64,000 nt of DNA from contig MPMT01000020.1 of assembly GCA_002238645.1 (NCBI GenBank), positions 1 to 64,000 on the forward strand, given 5' to 3'. A model generated the notes under the pieces. The model was not told the origin of the DNA. It did no database searches and worked only from the letters and a program-made list of their open reading frames with translations. Within the stretch, counting starts at the first letter, position 1. Each line of letters starts with the position of its first letter. The position numbers and the translations under genes are program-made. Below, piece after piece: positions 3,970 through 63,459 of the stretch. This stretch comes from Alphaproteobacteria bacterium bin52. GTDB taxonomy: Bacteria; Pseudomonadota; Alphaproteobacteria; Thalassobaculales; Thalassobaculaceae.

Positions 3970-4947
3970 TCAGCCCGCCGGAACCTCCAGCATCGCCATG
4001 AACGACGCCAGCCCGACCAGGGTGACGAACGCCGCTCCGGTATAGTTCATCGCGTGCCGGAGCGCGCCCATGCCCCGGTGACTGCCGGACCGCTCCATGA
4101 CCCGCATCGCGGTCTGCCTGGCGAGTATGGCCCCCACTCCCAGGATGCAGATGCTCAGCCCGATCCCGAGCGACATCGCTGCCACGAGCAGGAATCCCGG
4201 CACGATCATGCCGTTGGCCACCGCATAGAGCATGATGAGGACCGCGCCGGGACAGGGCACCATCCCGGCGGCCAGCGCCAGCAACCCGCCTTCCGTCCTG
4301 CCGCCGTGGTCATGATGGTGATGGTGGCCATGCCCGTGGTGGTGATGGCCGTGGCCGTGATGGTGATGGTGGACGTGGTCACCCGCGTTCGGGCCAAGGG
4401 AGGCGCGAACGGCGCAGTACAGCATGTACACGCCGATACCCACGATGATCAGGAAGCTCCCGGCGCGAAGGCCCGGCACTTCGGAGAGTCCGATTCCGAA
4501 CCCCGCCTGCAGCACGATGTCTGCCAGCCAGACCACGACGACCGCGGCAATGACGTGGACGATCGCGATCTGCGCCGCCATGACCACCCCGCGAACCACC
4601 CGCGCTTCGCGGCCGAGAAAATAGGACACGATGACGAACTTGCCGTGCCCCGGACCGAAGGCGTGGATACTTCCGTAGGCAAACGCGATCGCCAGGCCCA
4701 GAAAGAGCGCGCCGAGGTCGTCGCCCCGCTCCAGGGCTGTCATGTGCTCGGCGATCTCCGCATTGGCCCGGCGCTGGAATTCGACGGCCAGCCCGAGAAC
4801 GCGTGTCAGCCAGCCGTCGTTCTCGGCAGCAGTCCCGGCGTTCGGTTCCGCCTGCGTGTGCGCGAACGCTTCCGGCGCAGCGAACGAGACCGCCAGCGCC
4901 ACGGCGGCGGCTGCCATCCACAGCCGTATTCCGATACCGGCCAGCAT
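3970..4947 (-). CDS. NicO-family nickel/cobalt transporter
   Basis: The 325-residue inner-membrane protein has a signal-like first helix, HAFGPGHGK in the first core helix and GMVPCPGAVL in a later one, the two hallmark motifs of the NicO/RcnA family. Between them lies a cytoplasmic or periplasmic loop (bases about 4306-4380) with more than fifteen histidines mixed with glycine and aspartate, which is expected to bind Ni, Co or Zn. Family members export Ni/Co or supply metal. The ATG at 4947 (MLAGIGIRLWMAA) starts just before the hydrophobic helix; the frame runs on to 5040 only because it crosses into the inserted IS1-like element. No strong ribosome site is seen. The insertion begins 43 bp upstream of the start codon. 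Confidence 0.85.
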   Translation of the reverse strand: MLAGIGIRLWMAAAAVALAVSFAAPEAFAHTQAEPNAGTAAENDGWLTRVLGLAVEFQRRANAEIAEHMTALERGDDLGALFLGLAIAFAYGSIHAFGPGHGKFVIVSYFLGREARVVRGVVMAAQIAIVHVIAAVVVVWLADIVLQAGFGIGLSEVPGLRAGSFLIIVGIGVYMLYCAVRASLGPNAGDHVHHHHHGHGHHHHGHGHHHHHDHGGRTEGGLLALAAGMVPCPGAVLIMLYAVANGMIVPGFLLVAAMSLGIGLSICILGVGAILARQTAMRVMERSGSHRGMGALRHAMNYTGAAFVTLVGLASFMAMLEVPAG

Positions 4948-25800: not shown

Positions 25801-27208
25801 ATGACAACCGGCGAGGCCGTGGCGGGAGCACTTGTTCGCCACGGTGTCGGGACCGTGTTCGGCATCGCCGGCGCCCACATGTACGACTTCACTGATGCGG
25901 TGGCGCGCACGGACGAACTCGACTTCTACGTCACCCGGCTCGAGCAGGGGGCGGGCTACATGGCCTTCGGCTACACCACGTCCACGGGCCGGACCGGGGT
26001 CTTCACCGTGGTTCCCGGGCCGGGCGTTCTGAACGCGTCGGTCGTACTGTGCACCGCCTTCGGTGCGAACGCGCCGGTGCTGTGCGTGACCGGGAACGTC
26101 ATGTCGGACTTCATCGGCCGCGGCCGCGGCCAGCTCCACGAACTGCCGGACCAGCTTGCGACCATGCGGGGGTTCGCCCGCTGGGCCGAGCGCATCAACC
26201 ATCCCTCGAAGGCTCCCGGGCTGGTGGCCGAGGCGTTCCGGCTGCTCCCGAACCCGATCCGGACCAGGTACGCGAGGCGGCCTGGCTCATCGCGCGGGCC
26301 AGGAACCCGCTCATCGTCGTCGGCAACGATCATCCGCTTGGCCTGCTGACCTGGGCGGCGTGGCGGTACTGGCCCGGCTGCAACCTGGTGCTGGGGATCG
26401 GCAGCCGGCTGGAACTTGCCCACATGGGCTGGTGCTGGCGGCGGCAGGGGTTCAGGACCGTGCGTATCGACATCGATCCGCAGGAGATGGTCCGGCTGCC
26501 CCCGGATGTGGGTATCGTCTGCGATGCGCGGCGCGGGGTCATCAACCTCATGGTTGCGCTCGGCCGCCTGATCGACCGGCGCCCGTCGCGGGCCGCCGAG
26601 TGCCGGGCGCATACCGCCGCCGCCATGCGCGAGGTCGCGGCCCTGCAACCGCAGGCGTCGTGGCTCGGGGCCATTCGCGAGGCCCTGCCGCGCGACGGGT
26701 TCGTGGTCGAGAAAATCAGCCAGGCCGGGTTCGCTGCCCGGCTGCTGTTCCCGGTCTGGCGGCCGCGCCAGTACGTGACCTGCGGCTAGCAGGACAACCT
26801 GGGCTTCGGCTTCCAGACGGCACTGGGCGTGAAGGTCGCGAACCCGGCGAGTCCCGTGGTCTCGATCAACGGTGACGGCGGGTTCATGTACGTCGTGCAG
26901 GAACTGGCAACGGCGGTGAAGTACCGTCTGAACGTGGTCGCCGCCGCCTTCGACGACGCGGGTTTCGGCAACATGCGCCGCGACCAGGATACCCGGTACG
27001 GGGGCCGGCTGCTGGGCGCGGACCTGGACAACCCCGACCTCGTCACCCTGGCCGGGAGTTTCGGCGCCGAAGCCAGGCGTGTGACCACCTCCGATGCCCT
27101 GAGATCGGCGGTGGAGCACGGACTGGCCGGGGCAGTCTGCCGATGGTGATCGAGGTCCCCGTGGAACCCGGCAGCGAGGCCTCGCCATGGCCGTTCCTGC
27201 ACCTCCGG
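25801..27208 (+). pseudogene. Decayed acetolactate-synthase-like TPP enzyme
   Basis: Three pieces of one TPP-dependent enzyme remain. Frame 1 (25801 to about 26245) gives the N-terminal domain with the TPP-activating Glu in RLEQGAGYMAFGY. The reading then shifts at about 26245 to another frame (PEPDPDQVREAAW onwards), with part of the usual linker missing. A further in-frame gap follows VVG, where the next residues DHPLGL should come some 25 residues later. A TAG at 26787-26789 interrupts CG-QDNLGFGFQTALG. The cofactor-binding domain follows (INGDGGFM), and near 27135 a last frameshift separates AGAVCRW from LPMVIEVPVEP. Total length is below the 540 or so residues of intact relatives. Four independent lesions make function very unlikely. 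Confidence 0.88.
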
Positions 27209-27260
27209 CAACCAGGCTCATCCGGGTGCCAGGAACGGGGTTCGCAGGGGTGCTCCACGA

Positions 27261-29636
<2,376 letters not shown>

Positions 29637-50690: not shown

Positions 50691-53345
50691 CTACCGGTCG
50701 CCGTCCCTGCCGCTTGCCAGTTCCTTCAGCTCGTAGAGCATTTCCAGTGCCGCGAACGGGGTCAACCGGTCGGGTTCGATCTCGCCCAGACGCCGGGTCA
50801 GCAGGTCAGGCTCCCGGTGCTCCGGCGGCGGTGGCAGCGGGACCGAGCGGAACAGCGGCAGTTCTTCGATCAGACGGCGCGCGGTCCCGGACCGCTCGCT
50901 GTTTTCCAGTCGGTCGAGCACGTCGCGGGCCCGTTCGATCACCGCGCCCGGCAGGCCGGCGCGCCGGGCGACATGGATGCCGTAGGAGCGGTCCGCCGTG
51001 CCGCGGACAACCTCGTGCAGGAAGACGATATCGTCGTTCCATTCCCTGATGCGCATGGTGCAGCAGGCAAGCGCCGGCAGGGTGTCGGCAAGCACGGTGA
51101 GCTCGTGGTAGTGGGTGGCGAACAGGGTGCGGCTCGCGTTGACCTCGTGCAGGTGCTCGAGCACCGCCCAGGCGATCGAGAGCCCGTCCCAGGTCGCGGT
51201 GCCGCGACCGATCTCGTCAAGGATGACCAGCGAGCGTTCCGTCGCCTGGTTGAGGATGGCGGCGGTCTCGACCATCTCCACCATGAAGGTCGAGCGTCCG
51301 CGCGCCAGGTCGTCCGCCGCCCCGACCCGGCTGAACAGCCGGTCGATGACGCCGATGTGGGCGTCCTGCGCCGGCACGTAGCTGCCGGTCTGCGCAAGCA
51401 CGGCAATCAGCGCGTTCTGGCGCAGGAAGGTCGACTTGCCGGCCATGTTGGGGCCCGTGACCAGCCACAGGCGCTGGTCCCGGGCGAGATCGCAGCCGTT
51501 GGCGACAAACGGCTCGCCCTCGGCGGCCAGGGCCTCGACCACCGGGTGGCGGCCTTCGCTCACGGTGAAGTCAAGGCTGTGATCGATCCGTGGGCGCACC
51601 CAGGAACGATCGACGCCGAGGTCTGCCAGCGAGGACGCAACGTCGAGCCGTGCCAGCGCCGCCGCCGCGCGGTCAACCTCCCCGGCGCGGGCGCAGACCT
51701 GTTCGACCAGGAACCGGAACAGCTCGAGTTCCAGTGCGAGCGCGCGGTCCGCCGCCTGGCCCAGGTCACGCTCGAGTTCACCGAGCTCGGCGGTGGTAAA
51801 CCGCATGGTGCTGGCCATGGTCTGGCGATGAATGAAGGCCTGGTGCGCCTGCACCTTCCCGGCCTGGACCGCGGTCACCTCGACAAAGTAGCCCAGCACG
51901 TTGTTGTGCCGGACCTTGAGCGATGCGATGCCGGTTTCCTCGGCGTAGCGCTGCTGCAGGGCGGCGATCATGCGCCGGCTGTCGTCGCGCAGCGAGCGCA
52001 GGCGATCAAGGTCCCCGTCATGTCCCGCCGCGATGAACCCGCCGTCGCGGGCCGCAAGGCCCGGGCGCTCCACCAGTGCCGCCTCGAGCAGGGCGACGAG
52101 GTCACCGTGGCCGTCGAGTGCCGCTGCGATCGCGCCGATCCCGCCCGACGCGTCCGCAAGCAGGGCTGCGAGGCCGCCGGCACAGTCGAGTCCGTCGCGG
52201 ACCGCCGCGAGGTCGCGGGGCCCGCCGCGCTCGAGCGAGAGCCGCGAGACAGCACGCTCGAGATCGGTCATGGTCGCAAGCCGGTTGCGCACCTCAGCGC
52301 GCAGTTCCGGGCGGGTGGCAAAATGCGAGACCTCGTCGAGGCGGGCGTCGATCGCCGCCGGGTCGGTGAGCGGCGCGGCGAGGCGGTCGGCAAGCAGCCG
52401 TGCGCCGGCGCTGGTCGCGGTGCGGTCGATGACCCCGAGCAGGCTGCCGCGCCGGTCACCGGCCAGGGTTCGCAGCAGCTCGAGGTTGGTGCGTGTCGCC
52501 GCGTCGATGACCACGGTGTCGGCACCGTTGCAGCGGGCGGGCGGTCGAAGCCGTGGCAGCCTGCCCTGCTGGGTGAGGTCAAGGTAGTCGACGAGTGCTC
52601 CGGCCGCGGCCAGTTCCACTCGGGAAAAACTGCCGAACCCGTCCAGGGCGTCGACGCCGAACAGCGCCTTCAGTCGCCTTTCCCCGTTGATGCTGTCGAA
52701 CCGCGCCGATGGCTGGGGAACCAGGATGTCCCGCCAGTCATCGAGCGCGACGCCATCCAGGCGGTCCGGCACCAGCAGTTCACTCGGTGCGATCCGCGCC
52801 AGAAGCAGGGCCAGGCCGTCACGGTCGGCCGCCTGAACGAGGAAGGTCCCGGTCGAGATATCGACCCAGGCGACGCCGCAGGTCCCGCGCAGCTCGGCAA
52901 GTCCGGCGAGGTAGTTGTTGCGGCCCGGCTCGAGCAGGGTGTCTTCGGTGAGCGTGCCCGGGGTGATCACCCGGGAGACCGCGCGGCGGACAAGCTGTTT
53001 CGACCCGCGCCTGCGTGCCTCCTCCGGTGCCTCCACCTGGTCGCAGATGGCAACCCGAAACCCCTTCCGGATCAGCCGCGACAGGTAGGCATCGGCGGAA
53101 TGGACCGGGACCCCGCACATCGGGATGTCCTCGCCGTGGTGGCGGCCCCGCCGCGTGAGCGTGATGTCGAGCGCCCCGGCCGCCTCGACCGCGTCGGCAA
53201 AGAACAACTCGTAGAAATCGCCCATGCGGTAGAACAGGAGCGAATCCGGGTACTCTTTCTTGATTTCGAAGTACTGCGCCAGCATTGGCGTCAGGGTGCC
53301 GCTGGCACTGCGATCCTGTCGGGACGATGCGGTAATCCGGTTCAC
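50691..53345 (-). CDS. mutS: DNA mismatch repair protein MutS
   Basis: The 884-residue protein has the mismatch-reading F44-Y-E46 (MGDFYELFF), the connector and lever domains, and the ATPase with Walker [13 protein letters not shown] near residue 631 and Walker [17 protein letters not shown]. It detects mismatched bases and recruits MutL. Length is normal for the family. The start is a GTG at 53345 and the N-terminus [15 protein letters not shown] is the expected one. Divergent from maeB with 164 bp between them, a gene pair often seen in alphaproteobacteria. Confidence 0.97.
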
Positions 53346-55799: not shown

Positions 55800-57185
55800 G
55801 TGTTGAGCAGGTGGACGGCCGGGAGTCTTCTGAGAACAGCGGCGCTTGGCGCCGCGTTTGCTGCCGGGATCGGCGTGGTCGCGGCATTCACCCCGGGGAT
55901 CCCGTTTGCCGCCATGGTGGCCGGCTGGGTGCTCGCGACCGCGGTGGCCGGCGTGCTGATTTCCCTTCACGCGAACGGGCTTGCCACAGTCGCCCGGTCC
56001 CTGCGCGCCGGCGCCGGGAACAGTGAGCTTGCCCGGCTTGCCGACGGCAGCGGCGAGCTCGCCGAACTCGCGGGAGCGCTGATCCGGCACCTGCGCGAAG
56101 ACGAGATCGGCCAGGACCGGACCCGTGCGGAGACCGACGGGTTGCGCCGCATTGTGGCCGAACTTCCGGATCCGATCTTGGTCCTCGGCCCGGACGACCG
56201 CATTTTGCTTGCGAATGAGGCGGCGGCCCGGGCATTCGGCGAGGCGCTGGCCGGGCGGGACCTGAAGACTGTCCTGCGGGAGCCGAACCTGCTGTCGGCG
56301 CTCGGTGTGGCGCGACAGGGCGGAGAAGGCAAGGACATCGAGATCGCCGGGATCGGCCCGGCGGAGTCGGTCTACCGGGTGCGGGTTTCGCCGATCGGGG
56401 ACGAGCCGGGCGCAACCCGCCTGCTCGCGTTTACCAGCCTGACCGAGGCCCGGCGTGCGGAGCAGATGCGGGTCGAGTTCGTGGCCAATGTCAGCCATGA
56501 ACTGCGCACGCCGCTCGCGATCCTGCACGGGTTCGTCGAAACCCTGATGGGACCGGCCCGTGATGACGGCGAAGCGCGTGCCCGGTTCCTCGGCATCATG
56601 TACAGCCAGTCGACACGGATGACCCAGCTCGTCGAGGATCTCTTGTCCCTGACGCGGATCGAGGCTCGGGAACACCACCTGCCGACCGACACCGTCTCCA
56701 TTGACCGGGTGATCGAGCGGACGGTTGCCGATGCCCGCTACGTGGCGAGCCAGAAGGGCATGACGATCGAGTCCGGCATCCGGGACCGGCTGCCCGACGT
56801 GATCGGCGATCTCGACGAACTGCTGCAGGTTACCCAGAACCTGGTCGACAACGCCATCAAGTACGGCCGTTCCGACAGCGTGGTCAGGATCGAGGCGATG
56901 ATGGCGGAGGACGTCGAGCCACCGGCCCGCGACGGGGATACGGGAATGGTTGCAATCGCGATCAGTGACCAGGGAGAGGGCATTGCGCGCGAACACATCC
57001 CGAGACTGACCGAACGGTTCTACCGGGTGGACAGCGCGCGGTCGCGCAAGCTCGGCGGCACCGGGCTCGGGCTTGCGATCGTCAAGCACATCATCGCCCG
57101 GCACCGGGGGACGCTTGCAATCGCCAGCGAGGTGGGCACGGGCAGCACCTTTACGGTGTTCCTTCCAGCCGTACCGGAAGGCTGA
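55800..57185 (+). CDS. phoR: Phosphate regulon sensor histidine kinase
   Basis: The 461-residue kinase has two N-terminal membrane helices with a short loop, a PAS domain (ELPDPILVLGPDDRILLANEA region), the phospho-acceptor H233 in VSHELRTPLA and an ATPase domain with QNLVDNAIKYG (N box), SDQGEGI and GGTGLGLAIVKH. It senses Pst/PhoU state and phosphorylates PhoB. It begins with a GTG, 28 bp after maeB, and precedes pstS. Confidence 0.93.
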   Translation: MLSRWTAGSLLRTAALGAAFAAGIGVVAAFTPGIPFAAMVAGWVLATAVAGVLISLHANGLATVARSLRAGAGNSELARLADGSGELAELAGALIRHLREDEIGQDRTRAETDGLRRIVAELPDPILVLGPDDRILLANEAAARAFGEALAGRDLKTVLREPNLLSALGVARQGGEGKDIEIAGIGPAESVYRVRVSPIGDEPGATRLLAFTSLTEARRAEQMRVEFVANVSHELRTPLAILHGFVETLMGPARDDGEARARFLGIMYSQSTRMTQLVEDLLSLTRIEAREHHLPTDTVSIDRVIERTVADARYVASQKGMTIESGIRDRLPDVIGDLDELLQVTQNLVDNAIKYGRSDSVVRIEAMMAEDVEPPARDGDTGMVAIAISDQGEGIAREHIPRLTERFYRVDSARSRKLGGTGLGLAIVKHIIARHRGTLAIASEVGTGSTFTVFLPAVPEG

Positions 57186-57196
57186 CCGCCACACAA

Positions 57197-57214
57197 CTGT
57201 CACACTCCATTGAT
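57197..57214 (+). promoter_or_regulatory. Candidate PHO box upstream of pstS
   Basis: CTGTCAC, four bases, CATTGAT fits the PhoB pattern of two seven-base half-sites; the first half matches CTGTCAT at six positions and the second at four. It lies about 75 bp before the first pstS start and right after phoR. Confidence 0.5.
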
Positions 57215-57274
57215 AGGGTCCGGCTGCCCGTTGATGGCCGAGCCCGCCATCGGTGTGCCAGGCCTCCCATTCTG

Positions 57275-57334
57275 CTGGAGAACCGCATCATGACCCTCGT
57301 TCCACTGGAGAACCGCATCATGACCCTCGTTCCA
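57275..57334 (+). repeat. Exact 30-bp tandem duplication covering the pstS ribosome site and start codon
   Basis: Bases 57275-57304 are repeated exactly at 57305-57334. Each unit holds CTGGAG, the ATG and the first five codons (MTLVP), and because 30 is a multiple of three the frame stays open between the copies. Confidence 0.95.
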
Positions 57335-58372
57335 CGCGCCGCCGTCCTGACAGCCGGCGGTATTGCCCTGGCGGCGCTGATGTCGGCCCAACCGGCCGAT
57401 GCGCGCGACCAGGTCCGCATCGTCGGGTCCTCCACCGTCTTCCCGTTCTCTACCGTCGTCGCCGAGAACTTCAGCAAGAGCACCGGCATGAAGACCCCGG
57501 TGGTCGAGAGCACCGGTTCGGGCGGCGGCCTGAAGCTGTTCTGCGCTGGCGTCGGACCGGAGCATCCGGACATCACCAATGCCTCGCGCCGGATCAAGCA
57601 GTCGGAGATCGACACCTGCGGAAAGAACGGCATCGAGGACATCGTCGAGATCAAGGTCGGCTACGACGGTATCGTGCTCGCCAATTCCAAGGCGGGTCCG
57701 GTCATGAAGCTCAGCGAGAAGCAGGTCTTCATGGCACTGGCCAAGCAGGTTCCGGTCGACGACAAGCTGGTCGACAACCCCTACGAGCGCTGGTCGCAGA
57801 TCGATGCGTCCCTGCCCGACATCGAGATCGAGGTTCTCGGACCGCCCCCGACCTCGGGTACCCGTGACGCCTTCGTCGAGCTTGCGATGCGTGACGGCGC
57901 CAAAGCCTTCCCGATGCTGAAACAGCTGCGCAAGGACAAGGGCAAGAAGGCGTTCCGCGCCGTGTCCGACAGCATGCGCGAGGACGGCCGGTTCATCGAG
58001 GCCGGCGAGAACGACAACCTGATCGTCCAGAAGCTCGAGGCCAATCCGAACGCGCTCGGCATCTTCGGCTTCAGCTTCCTCGACCAGAATGCCGACAAGG
58101 TCCGGGGCTCCGAGGTCAATGGCGTTGCCCCGACCTTCGAGAACATTGCCGGAGGAGCCTACGGCATCTCCCGGTCCCTGTTCTTCTACGTCAAGAAGGC
58201 GCATGTCGGCGTGATCCCGGGCATCGCGGAATACGTCGCCGAGTTCACCAGCGAGCGGGCTGCCGGCGAGGAAGGGTACCTGACCGACAAGGGCCTGATC
58301 CCGCTACCGGCGGCGGAGCTGAAGAAATACCAGGAAGACGGAGCCAGGATGACACGCCTGGCCGGGCTCTGA
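57290..58372 (+). CDS. pstS: Phosphate ABC transporter substrate-binding protein
   Basis: The product is 360 residues from the first ATG or 350 from the second (57320), both with GGAG nine bases upstream because of the tandem duplication. The second start gives a normal signal peptide (RAAVLTAGGIALAALMSA, cleavage after ADA); the first adds ten residues (MTLVPLENRI). Phosphate contacts are visible in RIVGSSTVFPF, STGSGGGLKLFC and SGTRDAFVEL. It captures phosphate in the periplasm and passes it to PstCA. Strong hairpins follow the gene. Confidence 0.95.
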   Translation: MTLVPLENRIMTLVPRAAVLTAGGIALAALMSAQPADARDQVRIVGSSTVFPFSTVVAENFSKSTGMKTPVVESTGSGGGLKLFCAGVGPEHPDITNASRRIKQSEIDTCGKNGIEDIVEIKVGYDGIVLANSKAGPVMKLSEKQVFMALAKQVPVDDKLVDNPYERWSQIDASLPDIEIEVLGPPPTSGTRDAFVELAMRDGAKAFPMLKQLRKDKGKKAFRAVSDSMREDGRFIEAGENDNLIVQKLEANPNALGIFGFSFLDQNADKVRGSEVNGVAPTFENIAGGAYGISRSLFFYVKKAHVGVIPGIAEYVAEFTSERAAGEEGYLTDKGLIPLPAAELKKYQEDGARMTRLAGL

Positions 58373-58475: not shown

Positions 58476-59858
58476 GTGCACAGTTTGATCCTTGCGGCAA
58501 CAGTCCTGCTCCTGGCCCTGATCGGCTACGCCCTCGGACGATCCCGGTCGCGAAATCTCGCCGGTGCGAGCGGACAGCCGCTGCATTCGCTTCCCGCCTA
58601 TTACGGCGGCTATGTCGCGATCTGGTGCGGTCTGCCGGCAGTCCTCGTGATGGCCGTGTGGCTCGGTACCGAGGGCGCCATCGTGCGGGCCCTGACCGTG
58701 CAGTCGCTGCCGGCCGAACTGGTCAGCGACGATCCGGATCGCATGGCGCTGCTGCTCACCGACATCCGCAACCTGGCCTCGGGCAGCATCTTCAGCCGCG
58801 ACGTCGACCCGGCGCTCCAGGCCGCCGCCGATCACTACCAGTCGCTGCGCCAGACCGGATTCGCCTCCATGATCGTGGTGGTCCTGGCCTGCGCTGTGGC
58901 CGGACTGGTCTGGGCCCGCCGGCGCGTGACGCCCGGCCTGCGGGCCCGCAACCACGTCGAGCGCGTCATCCTGTGGGTGCTGATCGCCTGCTCGACCATC
59001 GCCATCCTGACGACCATCGGCATCGTGCTGTCGCTGATCTTCGAGACCCTGAGGTTCTTCGAGAAGGTGCCCCTGCACGAGTTCCTGTTCGGGTTGCACT
59101 GGAGTCCGCAGACGGCGATCCGCAGCGACCAGGTCGGCGCATCGGGCGCGTTCGGCGCCATCCCGCTGTTTGCCGGAACCCTGCTCATCACCCTGATCGC
59201 CATGCTCGTGGCCGGACCGATCGGGCTGATGAGCGCCATCTACATGGCCGAGTACGCGGGGTCCAGGCTCAGGTCTACCGCCAAACCGATTCTTGAAGTG
59301 CTCGCAGGGATCCCGACAGTTGTCTACGGGTTTTTCGCCGCCCTGACCGTCGCCCCCTTCGTGAGGCAGTCCGGCGGCAGCATCGGTCTCGACGTGGCAT
59401 CCGAGAGTGCGCTCGCGGCCGGCGTGGTCATGGGAATCATGATCATCCCGTTCGTCTCCTCGCTGTCCGATGACGTGATCAACGCCGTTCCGCAGTCCCT
59501 GCGCGACGCGTCCTACGGTCTCGGCGCCACCCAGTCGGAAACCATTCGCCAGGTGATCCTGCCCGCGGCTCTGCCCGGCATTGTCGGAGCCTTCATGCTC
59601 GCGATCTCGCGCGCCATTGGCGAGACCATGATCGTGGTCATGGCTGCGGGTCTCGCGGCCAACCTCACCGCGAACCCGCTGGAAGCGGTCACCACGGTCA
59701 CCGTGCAGATCGTCACGCTGCTGGTGGGAGACCAGGAGTTCGACTCGGCCAAGACCCTTGCGGCCTTCGCGCTCGGGCTGATGCTGTTTGTCGTCACCCT
59801 CGGGCTCAACCTGCTCGCCCTGTCCGTGGTCAGAAAGTACCGGGAACGCTATGACTGA
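58476..59858 (+). CDS. pstC: Phosphate ABC transporter permease PstC
   Basis: The 460-residue permease has the long N-terminal domain typical of alphaproteobacterial PstC, with two helices and a periplasmic loop before the six-helix core. The core shows GAFGAIPLFAGTLLITLIAM, LAGIPTVVYGFFAAL and the coupling helix SLRDASYGLGATQSETI. It begins with a GTG and overlaps pstA by eight bases. Confidence 0.94.
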   Translation: MHSLILAATVLLLALIGYALGRSRSRNLAGASGQPLHSLPAYYGGYVAIWCGLPAVLVMAVWLGTEGAIVRALTVQSLPAELVSDDPDRMALLLTDIRNLASGSIFSRDVDPALQAAADHYQSLRQTGFASMIVVVLACAVAGLVWARRRVTPGLRARNHVERVILWVLIACSTIAILTTIGIVLSLIFETLRFFEKVPLHEFLFGLHWSPQTAIRSDQVGASGAFGAIPLFAGTLLITLIAMLVAGPIGLMSAIYMAEYAGSRLRSTAKPILEVLAGIPTVVYGFFAALTVAPFVRQSGGSIGLDVASESALAAGVVMGIMIIPFVSSLSDDVINAVPQSLRDASYGLGATQSETIRQVILPAALPGIVGAFMLAISRAIGETMIVVMAAGLAANLTANPLEAVTTVTVQIVTLLVGDQEFDSAKTLAAFALGLMLFVVTLGLNLLALSVVRKYRERYD

Positions 59859-61146
59859 CCATGCAGCCAGGCTTCGGGAAGGGGCGATGATGTCGGGCGA
59901 ACCGGACTACGCAGCGCGTCTGCGCCGCCGCCATCGGTCCGAGATGCGGTTCCGGTTCTACGGCCTGCTGAGCATCGCACTTGCCGGTGTCATCCTCGTG
60001 ATCCTGGTCGGGAGCATCGTTCTCAAGGGCTACAGTGCGTTCTGGCAGACACACGTGCGCCTCGACTTCGCGATCAGCGCCGAACAGGTGGACATCGACA
60101 ACCTGCGCGAGACCAACTGGGACGGCCAGGTCAAGGCAACGCTCCGCGACATGGCGCCCGAGGTCACCGGCAGGAGGGACAAGCGCAAGCTCTACCGATT
60201 CGTCTCGCCGAATGCCGGCTATGACCTGCGCGACGCCATCGCAGCCGATCCCGGCCTGCTTGGCACGGGGTTCAGTCTCTGGGTCAAGGCGTCCGACGAC
60301 ATCGACATGCTCACCAAGGGCCACCTCGACCGCACCTTGCCGGAATCCGATCGCCGCGTCTCAGATCTCGAGGTTGGCTGGTACGACCGGTTTGTCGGGG
60401 AGGGACGCATCGAGTTGCGGTTCAACCTCGACTTCTTCACCACCGCGGACAGTCGCGAGCCTGAGGAGGCAGGAATCCAGGGCGCACTGATGGGCTCGTT
60501 CCTGACCCTGCTCGTCACCCTTGCGCTATCGTTTCCGGTTGGCGTTATGGCAGCGGTATACCTTGAGGAATTTGCGCCGAAGAACCGGTGGACCGACATC
60601 ATCGAGGCCAACATCAACAACCTGGCGGCGGTTCCCTCGATCGTCTTCGGGTTGCTCGGTCTTGCCGTCGTCATCTCGCTGTTCGGTGTTCCGCGCTCGG
60701 CGCCCCTGGCCGGCGGCATCGTGCTCGCGCTGATGACGCTGCCGACCATCATCATCGCCTCGCGCGCGGCACTGAAGGCGGTGCCGCCATCGATCCGGGA
60801 AGCCGCCACAGGTCTGGGGGCGTCACCGCACCAGGTCGTGATCCACCACGTCCTGCCGCTCGCCATGCCGGGCATCCTGACCGGGACCATCATCGGGCTG
60901 GCCCAGGCGCTCGGCGAGTCGGCGCCGCTGCTGATGATCGGCATGGTTGCCTTCATCGTCGACACGCCGACCGGGTTCACCGATCCGGCGACTGTACTCC
61001 CGGTGCAGATCTATATCTGGGCCGACAGTCCGGAACGGGCGTTCGTCGAGAAGACCTCGGCCGCCATCATGGTCCTGCTTGCCTTTCTCGCCTGCATGAA
61101 CGCAACGGCGGTCTGGCTGCGCAGGAAGTTCGAACGCCGCTGGTAG
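59851..61146 (+). CDS. pstA: Phosphate ABC transporter permease PstA
   Basis: The 431-residue permease also has an extended N-terminal region (DUF3333-type, residues about 50-220) with a helix and a large periplasmic domain. The core includes PVGVMAAVYLEEFAPKN, NNLAAVPSIVFGLLGLAV and the coupling helix SIREAATGLGASPHQVV. The ATG at 59851 overlaps pstC; the ATGATG at 59887 has a better ribosome site (GGAAGGGG) and could be the true start. Confidence 0.93.
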   Translation: MTDHAARLREGAMMSGEPDYAARLRRRHRSEMRFRFYGLLSIALAGVILVILVGSIVLKGYSAFWQTHVRLDFAISAEQVDIDNLRETNWDGQVKATLRDMAPEVTGRRDKRKLYRFVSPNAGYDLRDAIAADPGLLGTGFSLWVKASDDIDMLTKGHLDRTLPESDRRVSDLEVGWYDRFVGEGRIELRFNLDFFTTADSREPEEAGIQGALMGSFLTLLVTLALSFPVGVMAAVYLEEFAPKNRWTDIIEANINNLAAVPSIVFGLLGLAVVISLFGVPRSAPLAGGIVLALMTLPTIIIASRAALKAVPPSIREAATGLGASPHQVVIHHVLPLAMPGILTGTIIGLAQALGESAPLLMIGMVAFIVDTPTGFTDPATVLPVQIYIWADSPERAFVEKTSAAIMVLLAFLACMNATAVWLRRKFERRW

Positions 61147-61155
61147 GATGTCGGG

Positions 61156-61959
61156 ATGGTGATGAACGGACAGCAGGACGAGAACCCGGCACGCGACTTC
61201 GCCCGGGTGAAGATGCAGGCCGAAAAGGTCACGGTGTTCTACGGTGACGCCCGGGCGTTGCATGACGTCGACCTCGATATCAGGGAACATACGGTCACGG
61301 CGCTGATCGGTCCGTCCGGCTGCGGCAAGTCGACCTTCCTGCGGTGCCTGAACCGCATGAACGACGTGATCGACATCTGCCGGGTGGAAGGCCGGATTAC
61401 GCTTGACGGCGAGGACATCAACACGCCGTCGCTCGACACCGTGCATCTGCGGGCCCGGGTCGGCATGGTGTTTCAGAAGCCGAACCCGTTTCCCAAGTCG
61501 ATCTACGACAATGTCGCCTACGGTCCGCGGATCCACGGCATGACGTCGGGCAAGTCGGAGCTCGACGAGATGGTGGAGACCAGCCTCGAGAAGGCCGGGC
61601 TGTGGAAGGAGGTCCGGGATCGGCTTGACGAACCCGGCACCGGACTTTCTGGTGGCCAGCAACAGCGTCTGTGCATCGCGCGATCGATCGCGGTAAACCC
61701 GGAAGTGATCCTGATGGACGAGCCGTGCTCGTCGCTCGATCCGATCGCCACCGCCCGGATCGAGGAACTGATTGACGAACTGCGCGCCAACTTCACGATC
61801 GTGATCGTGACCCACTCGATGCAGCAGGCGGCACGGGTCTCGCAACGCACCGGCTTCTTTCATCTCGGTGAACTGGTGGAAGTCGGCAACACCGACCAGA
61901 TCTTCACCAATCCGGACGATCAACGCACCCAGGACTATATCACCGGCCGCTTCGGCTAG
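61156..61959 (+). CDS. pstB: Phosphate ABC transporter ATP-binding protein
   Basis: The 267-residue ATPase has Walker [10 protein letters not shown] (residues 52-60), the PstB-specific [17 protein letters not shown], signature LSGGQQQRL and Walker [13 protein letters not shown]. It powers phosphate uptake and takes part in signalling through PhoU to PhoR. It lies nine bases after pstA. Confidence 0.97.
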
Positions 61960-61999
61960 GAGCCGGGCGGACTCACCCTTATCGGGAGCCTCAAGGGCG

Positions 62000-62722
62000 A
62001 TGGAACGCACGGTCAAGGCATTCGACAACGATCTCGACGCGCTCAAGTCGGCAGCAGCGGCGATGGGCGGCCTGGTCGAGGCCCAGGTTGCGGATTCGGT
62101 TCGCGCTGTCGTGCGGCGCGATACCGATCTTGCCGCGCGAACACGAGAGATCGACGAGCGGATCGATGACATGGAAATCGAGATCCAGGATCTCGCACAG
62201 CGGATTCTGGCCTTGCGGTCCCCGGTGGCCTCGGACCTGCGCGCCATTCTCGGTGCCCTGCACATTGCCCGTGACCTGGAACGCATGGGCGATCACGCCA
62301 AGAACATTGCCAAGCGCGTGAGTGCGCTTTCTGCCGTTGCCGAGCTGCAGGGCCTGAACGGGATCGTGCGCATGGCGCGGCTTGCCCGGGCACTGATCAA
62401 GGACGTGCTTGATTCCTATGTCGACGGCGATACCGAGGCTGCCCTGCGCGCCTGGCGGCGCGATGAGGAAATCGACGAGATGCACACGAGCCTGTTTCGC
62501 GAGCTCCTGACCTACATGATGGAGGATCCGCGAAGCATCTCCTACTGCACGCACCTTCTGTTCGTTGCCAAGAACATCGAACGGATCGGTGACCACGCCA
62601 CCAACATTGCCGAAATCGTTCACTTCATCGAGGAAGGCAGCCGGTTTGCCGAGAGCCGGCCGACCAGTGACGACGCCAGTGTCACGGTTGTCGACGCGAC
62701 AGACAGGGAGCAGGGGACATGA
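62000..62722 (+). CDS. phoU: Phosphate signalling protein PhoU
   Basis: The 240-residue protein has the two three-helix PhoU repeats, each with the metal-binding E-R-x-G-D-H-A-x-N-I motif: LERMGDHAKNIAKR and IERIGDHATNIAEI. It links the transporter to PhoR and keeps the regulon off when phosphate is plentiful. The ATG at 62000 gives the family N-terminus (ERTVKAFDNDL); the frame above it overlaps pstB. Confidence 0.95.
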   Translation: MERTVKAFDNDLDALKSAAAAMGGLVEAQVADSVRAVVRRDTDLAARTREIDERIDDMEIEIQDLAQRILALRSPVASDLRAILGALHIARDLERMGDHAKNIAKRVSALSAVAELQGLNGIVRMARLARALIKDVLDSYVDGDTEAALRAWRRDEEIDEMHTSLFRELLTYMMEDPRSISYCTHLLFVAKNIERIGDHATNIAEIVHFIEEGSRFAESRPTSDDASVTVVDATDREQGT

Positions 62723-63459
62723 CCCGCGTGCAGGTGGAGAGATTCGGCAGGGATGACGCCCTGATGAAGCCGCACATCCTGGTCGTCGAGGACGAGGACG
62801 ACATCGTCACCCTGCTGCGCTACACGCTCGAACGCGAGGGTTTCCGGGTCAGTGCGGCCACCAATGGAGAGGAAGCACTGCTGCTGTGTCGGGAACAGAT
62901 GCCGGACCTCGTCCTGCTTGACTGGATGCTGCCTCTGCTGTCCGGTTCCGATGTCTGCCGACAGTTGCGCCGGGTGGACGATACTGCGGAGATACCGGTC
63001 ATCATGCTCACGGCCCGCGGCGAGGAGACCGACCGGGTACGGGGACTCAATGCCGGTGCGGATGACTACATCACCAAACCGTTCAGCCTCGTTGAGGTGG
63101 TGGCAAGGATCCGGGCGGTACTGCGGCGAACCCGGCCCGGCTCCCAGGCCAGCCAGCTGACCTTTGCCGACCTGGCGATGGACCTCGCCAATCACCGGGT
63201 GACCCGCGACGGCCGCAATATCCATCTGGGACCGACGGAGTTCCGGCTTCTGCGGCACTTCCTGGAGTATCCGCGCCGGGTGTTCTCACGTACCCAGTTG
63301 CTCGATCGTGTCTGGGGCCGGGACGTCTACGTCGAGGCGCGCACGGTCGATGTCCATATCAGACGGCTGCGCAAGGCCCTGAACGGGGATGGCGAAAAGG
63401 ACCTGATCCGTACCGTCCGTTCCGCCGGCTACGCCCTGGACATGCCGATGGAGACCTGA
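62719..63459 (+). CDS. phoB: Phosphate regulon response regulator PhoB
   Basis: The 246-residue regulator has a receiver domain with phospho-acceptor D68 (LLDWMLP), the switch Thr in MLTARGEE and Lys in ITKPFS, followed by an OmpR-type winged helix (LGPTEFRLLRHFLE, VDVHIRRLRKAL). When phosphorylated by PhoR it binds PHO boxes. The first ATG overlaps the phoU stop (ATGA); an internal ATG at 62764 gives the more usual N-terminus (MKPHILVVEDE). Confidence 0.96.
   Translation: MTRVQVERFGRDDALMKPHILVVEDEDDIVTLLRYTLEREGFRVSAATNGEEALLLCREQMPDLVLLDWMLPLLSGSDVCRQLRRVDDTAEIPVIMLTARGEETDRVRGLNAGADDYITKPFSLVEVVARIRAVLRRTRPGSQASQLTFADLAMDLANHRVTRDGRNIHLGPTEFRLLRHFLEYPRRVFSRTQLLDRVWGRDVYVEARTVDVHIRRLRKALNGDGEKDLIRTVRSAGYALDMPMET

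Follow-up and report, generated by a model that had tools for sequence, protein, structure and literature searches.

What happened at the start of pstS, and does it matter to the cell? In the window, by which we mean the whole stretch of 64,000 nucleotides that was analysed, a first-pass annotation had pointed to a 30-bp tandem duplication across the ribosome site and start codon of this gene for a phosphate-binding protein. The locus raises the questions of whether the duplication is real, how old it is, and whether it changes the PstS protein or its amount.

Structure of the repeat

The exact tandem lies at 57275-57335 and consists of two 30-bp units plus 1 further matching base at 57335, giving a 61-bp array. 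Copy 1 (57275-57304) and copy 2 (57305-57334), both on the forward strand, were recovered by a tandem scan, by Tandem Repeats Finder, where the repeat had the best score of 14 rows for the 64-kb window, and by a genome-wide pattern search. It is the only exact tandem in the window with two full copies at periods of 12-300. When the 4.2-Mb genome was searched for the unit with up to 3 mismatches, two matches were found, both at 57275-57334, and a reversed control pattern gave 0. An exact adjacent repeat of a 30-mer is far beyond chance expectation. A mobile element was ruled out because the unit is present at no other site in the genome. Elsewhere in the window, an imperfect 21-bp repeat of 2.6 copies with 84% matches occurs at 4316-4369.

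Each copy contains a Shine-Dalgarno-like GGAG (57277-57280 in copy 1 and 57307-57310 in copy 2, forward strand) followed after a 9-nt spacer by an ATG (57290-57292 and 57320-57322, respectively). Both ATGs open the pstS ORF at 57290-58372, which encodes 360 aa from the first ATG and 350 aa from the second, and the reading frame is kept because 30 is divisible by 3. The exact doubling that had been described, with identical copies that each supply a ribosome site and a start in one frame, thus holds in full. Downstream of the second ATG the ancestral sequence context is preserved, and this ATG is the counterpart of the start used in the congener described below. The unit itself is nearly palindromic (TGGA...TCATGA...TCCA).

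The gene affected belongs to a pst-pho cluster on the forward strand. The long form of pstS (57290-58372) was identified from PF12849 (149.4 bits against a cut-off of 27) and from its position in the cluster. Because the protein scored 149.4 bits with TIGR02136, under the curated cut-off of 206.6, we use the name in the sense of a PstS-like binding protein of the pst operon, as supported by PF12849 (PBP_like_2) and the neighbourhood. A search of this genome with the PstS protein gave one match. Upstream is a gene for a phoR-like sensor kinase (55800-57185; TIGR02966, 317.5 bits, slightly under the cut-off of 334.2). Downstream are pstC, pstA, pstB, phoU, and phoB (58476-63459; TIGR02138, TIGR00974, TIGR00972, TIGR02135, and TIGR02154, each over its cut-off), so that the order is phoR-pstS-pstC-pstA-pstB-phoU-phoB with the repeat at the 5' end of pstS. 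An unduplicated element on the same strand at 57197-57214, 60 bases upstream of copy 1, reads CTGTCAC-N4-CATTGAT and resembles what we take to be the Pho-box consensus. The motif CTGTCAY occurs in 44 of 105 pstS upstream regions, as compared with an average of 2.2 in shuffles, and a looser two-half Pho-box pattern is found in 29 of the 105, including those of the window and the congener. Scanning of 57100-57400 for promoters gave no sigma-70-like site and no terminator-like site. A side observation from the window is an 810-aa open frame on the minus strand at 25971-28403 that matches no Pfam model at E 0.001; a long open frame on the opposite strand overlaps it, and it may not be a gene.

Two starts and one predicted mature protein

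The predicted signal peptide, MTLVPRAAVLTAGGIALAALMSAQPADA, is encoded at 57320-57403 on the forward strand, where a cleavage site was read by eye using the A-x-A rule for signal peptidase. The product of the first ATG is MTLVPLENRI, then MTLVPRAAVLTAGGIALAALMSAQPADA, then RDQ. The ten added residues precede both the hydrophobic core and the apparent A-x-A site (again by eye). Ribosomes could initiate at either ATG, more often at the second, and the n-region of the signal peptide would then be ten residues longer in one precursor than in the other. Because these residues lie ahead of the predicted cleavage site, signal peptidase would remove the difference, and the same mature PstS is expected from either precursor. 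Any effect of the duplication should therefore be confined to the amount or export of PstS. The proposal of either two translation starts or a ten-residue extension fits this arrangement of two complete ribosome-site and start modules in one frame.

As a comparison, the N-terminal proteoform pairs of Salmonella likewise arise from one gene with two in-frame starts, and some involve a signal peptide (mBio 2024, PMC11005335). In the portion of that report available, the starts are not described as duplicated sequence, which is what they are in pstS. Some of the short forms in Salmonella are described there as losing the signal peptide, whereas both forms of PstS would retain the predicted one.

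Copy number in relatives

Our search of the genus covered two genomes, that of the window and a congener (G001, whose pstS locus is L032), with one genome per species. The congener PstS protein is 96% identical, and its gene has a single copy of the unit. In the MAFFT alignment, the second copy is represented by a clean 30-bp gap with both flanks collinear. MAFFT pairs copy 2 with the single copy of the congener, but which of the two is counted as extra is arbitrary. Both window copies share two differences from the congener unit, at unit positions 14 and 25, as expected if one sequence of this lineage was copied.

We also compared an orthologue set of 116 loci, 115 of which had a pstS match and 105 of which were distinct, with the window counted once although it is covered by five overlapping loci. 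The scan for exact tandems took in all 115, and none of at least 12 bp was found near the pstS start in the 104 distinct orthologues besides the window. One of them (L022) has an 11-bp tandem in its start region. Two in-frame ATGs, each with a ribosome-site word at the right distance, occurred in 2 of the 105, the window and L070. Because the two ATGs of L070 adjoin and use one common GGAG, the window is the sole orthologue of the 105 with two separately served in-frame ATGs. These counts depend on a simple start rule of ribosome-site word plus spacing, under which 6 of the 105 had no qualifying start and some others had a second qualifying GTG or TTG. By hand count, GTG is a well-served pstS start in about half of the orthologues (55 of 105), and the start in this genus is ATG. 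An approximate tandem scan gave partial repeats of 15-18 bp with 80-88% identity in 4 of the 104 others (L044, L062, L075, and L083). None of these is the 30-bp unit and we judged them unrelated to it.

The first-pass annotation had proposed comparing copy number among relatives. A pair of copies fixed across them was not seen; the congener and all other orthologues compared have one. A single copy is thus most simply taken as ancestral, and the doubling as a lineage-specific gain.

Age of the duplication

The identity of the two copies had been read as evidence for a recent event. Between the window and the congener, pstS differs at 42 of 1053 bases (4.0%); of the fourfold sites, 19 of 188 differ. 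At the 4.0% rate, two 30-bp copies that had existed since the species split would have a probability of ~0.30 of remaining identical. Identity therefore does not prove recency, since there is a ~30% chance of no difference even at the age of the split, and gene conversion or re-duplication would mask the age of the copies too. What stands of the claim is the timing relative to the congener: its single copy, together with the two differences common to both window copies, fits a duplication that postdates the split. The time since then is poorly bounded because the comparison rests on one congener.

Is the duplication real and how common are such repeats?

Because the genome is a draft of 120 contigs, we considered whether the repeat could be an assembly artefact in which two contig ends with 30 common bases were joined untrimmed. 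A length of 30 bp would match the k-1 overlap at k = 31. However, two contigs share an exact terminal overlap of 127 bases (1 informative pair among 81 ends). As judged from this single pair, the assembler used words of 127, which exceeds the 61 bp of the array, so that the array was probably read within single words. In addition, a further 60 stretches of the genome (916,066 bases in all) yielded no second exact 30-bp tandem, and the window contains no Ns. We consider an artefact very unlikely and take the duplication to be, very probably, genuine and restricted to this lineage.

Exact tandems with a period of at least 18 are not rare. There were 9 in 150 partly overlapping stretches from many relatives (1.356 Mb), and only 1 of the 9, the 30-bp tandem of pstS, encloses a ribosome site and start. 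By contrast, such repeats are scarcer in this genome, where the 60 other stretches (916,066 bases, 2,047 of them masked) gave 3 exact tandems with a period of at least 15, the longest being 21 bp. This makes a 30-bp tandem at the start codon of a Pho-regulon gene somewhat unusual, which counts against regarding it as an ordinary duplication. The genome also has three exact copies of a 12-bp unit, TGTGGATAAACT, close to a contig end (L123:181-216).

Origin of the duplication

Our preferred explanation, which we hold to be probable, is an ordinary small in-frame tandem duplication, specific to this lineage, that spans the ribosome site and start of pstS and is predicted to be near-neutral. Duplications of this ordinary kind arise by replication slippage or illegitimate recombination, and either may have acted here. 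Read from the sequence, the ends of the duplication share one base only (C), so there is no sign of slippage between longer homologous stretches. Loss of mismatch repair found no support as a cause, given that mutS (50691-53345) is full-length with all five Pfam MutS domains. A longer DNA query gave a weak second match (80% over 50 bases, E 5.4e-4), which corresponds to 57397-57446. That segment is in the region of the cleavage site and mature N-terminus and is outside the 30-bp repeat.

Short repeat-associated indels between relatives are likewise described as small variable segments (Genome Biology 2010, PMC2884548), and for many of these the authors, in the part of their report available, thought replication slippage likely. 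Their comparisons, as given there, were within three species, whereas ours is between two species of one genus.

Predicted effects on translation

We estimated from a folding model how much energy it takes to open the ribosome footprint, assuming 6 different 5' ends of the mRNA. For 6 of 6, the second start was cheaper to open than the first, by 1.3-2.6 kcal/mol. The summed initiation estimate for two copies relative to one was lower for 4 of the 6 and higher for 2. Because the estimate changes sign with the assumed 5' end, the model does not point consistently to higher or lower PstS output.

The near-palindromic unit allows copy 1 and copy 2 to pair, and in minimum-energy folds both ribosome sites and both ATGs are wholly or partly inside one stem. 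We rejected the idea that the duplication creates a stable mRNA hairpin: it is present in these folds, yet the two-copy leader showed no excess stability over shuffles (z 0.75, 0.33, -0.67). It is scarcely credible that the locus is a two-state translational rheostat, in which such a hairpin would enclose both ribosome sites and starts, and losing or regaining a copy through slippage would switch PstS output with the mature protein unchanged. The congener leader folds somewhat better than its own shuffles (z -1.55, -1.24). A 10-bp hairpin is possible in it just upstream of the ribosome site (L032:2939-2964); the counterpart in the window (57228-57253) has two stem mismatches.

Alternatively, the duplication could be an adaptive regulatory mutation that alters PstS translation through two entry sites and mRNA folding and is kept for the local phosphate supply. 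In favour are the role of pstS in nutrient uptake, the Pho-box-like site of the gene, and a precedent at argB in evolved Escherichia coli (eLife 2019, PMC6941894). According to the parts of that report available, six re-introduced mutations increased ArgB 2.6-8.2-fold and growth by 36-61% while mRNA changed little, and the strain list includes a 38-bp duplication upstream of argB (PMC6941894). The coordinates listed (4145901 for a change 24 bp upstream; 4145912-4145949 for the duplication) place it, by our calculation, at about -13 to +25, so that the start codon lies within it (PMC6941894). As in pstS, a metabolic gene carries a short duplication where its translation begins, but argB is described there as having no canonical Shine-Dalgarno sequence, whereas each pstS copy has a GGAG (PMC6941894). 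The argB duplication arose under known selection, and the study quantified what upstream mutations did (PMC6941894). Since 38 is not a multiple of 3, the two argB starts are in different frames, unlike those of pstS. The argB case indicates that such duplications do arise and can be adaptive. For pstS, however, the folding model gave no consistent direction (4 of 6 lower, 2 of 6 higher), the two-copy leader was no stabler than shuffles, and the doubling did not recur among the 104 other orthologues. We therefore regard an adaptive origin as unlikely.

Phase-variable contingency loci typically have many short repeat units near a start codon, often with shifts of frame, and exact adjacent repeats can delete or expand via slippage. 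The pstS repeat is also near a start codon, and the two species of the genus do not have the same number of copies. It had been suggested that this slip-prone unit could gain or lose copies and so tune PstS output, which as a contingency element it would do within the population. By contrast with phase-variable loci, pstS has two 30-bp units and the frame is kept. Exactly two units are present, as against the several to many expected of such an array, and extra or decayed copies of the unit were found in none of the 104 other orthologues scanned. With only two copies and no consistent direction from RNA folding, the suggestion of tuning is not upheld, and we consider a contingency element extremely unlikely.

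Returning to the ordinary in-frame duplication, its effect on the amount or export of PstS is most likely small and near-neutral. In the open-licence literature that we searched, no duplicated pstS start was found. PstS is a protein whose amount matters when phosphate is scarce. For the duplication to gain greater importance, the one- and two-copy states would have to differ in output or fitness, or members of the population would have to differ in copy number. As it stands, the locus offers a clean case from nature in which a translation start has undergone a small in-frame duplication, and this can be compared with a laboratory-selected one.
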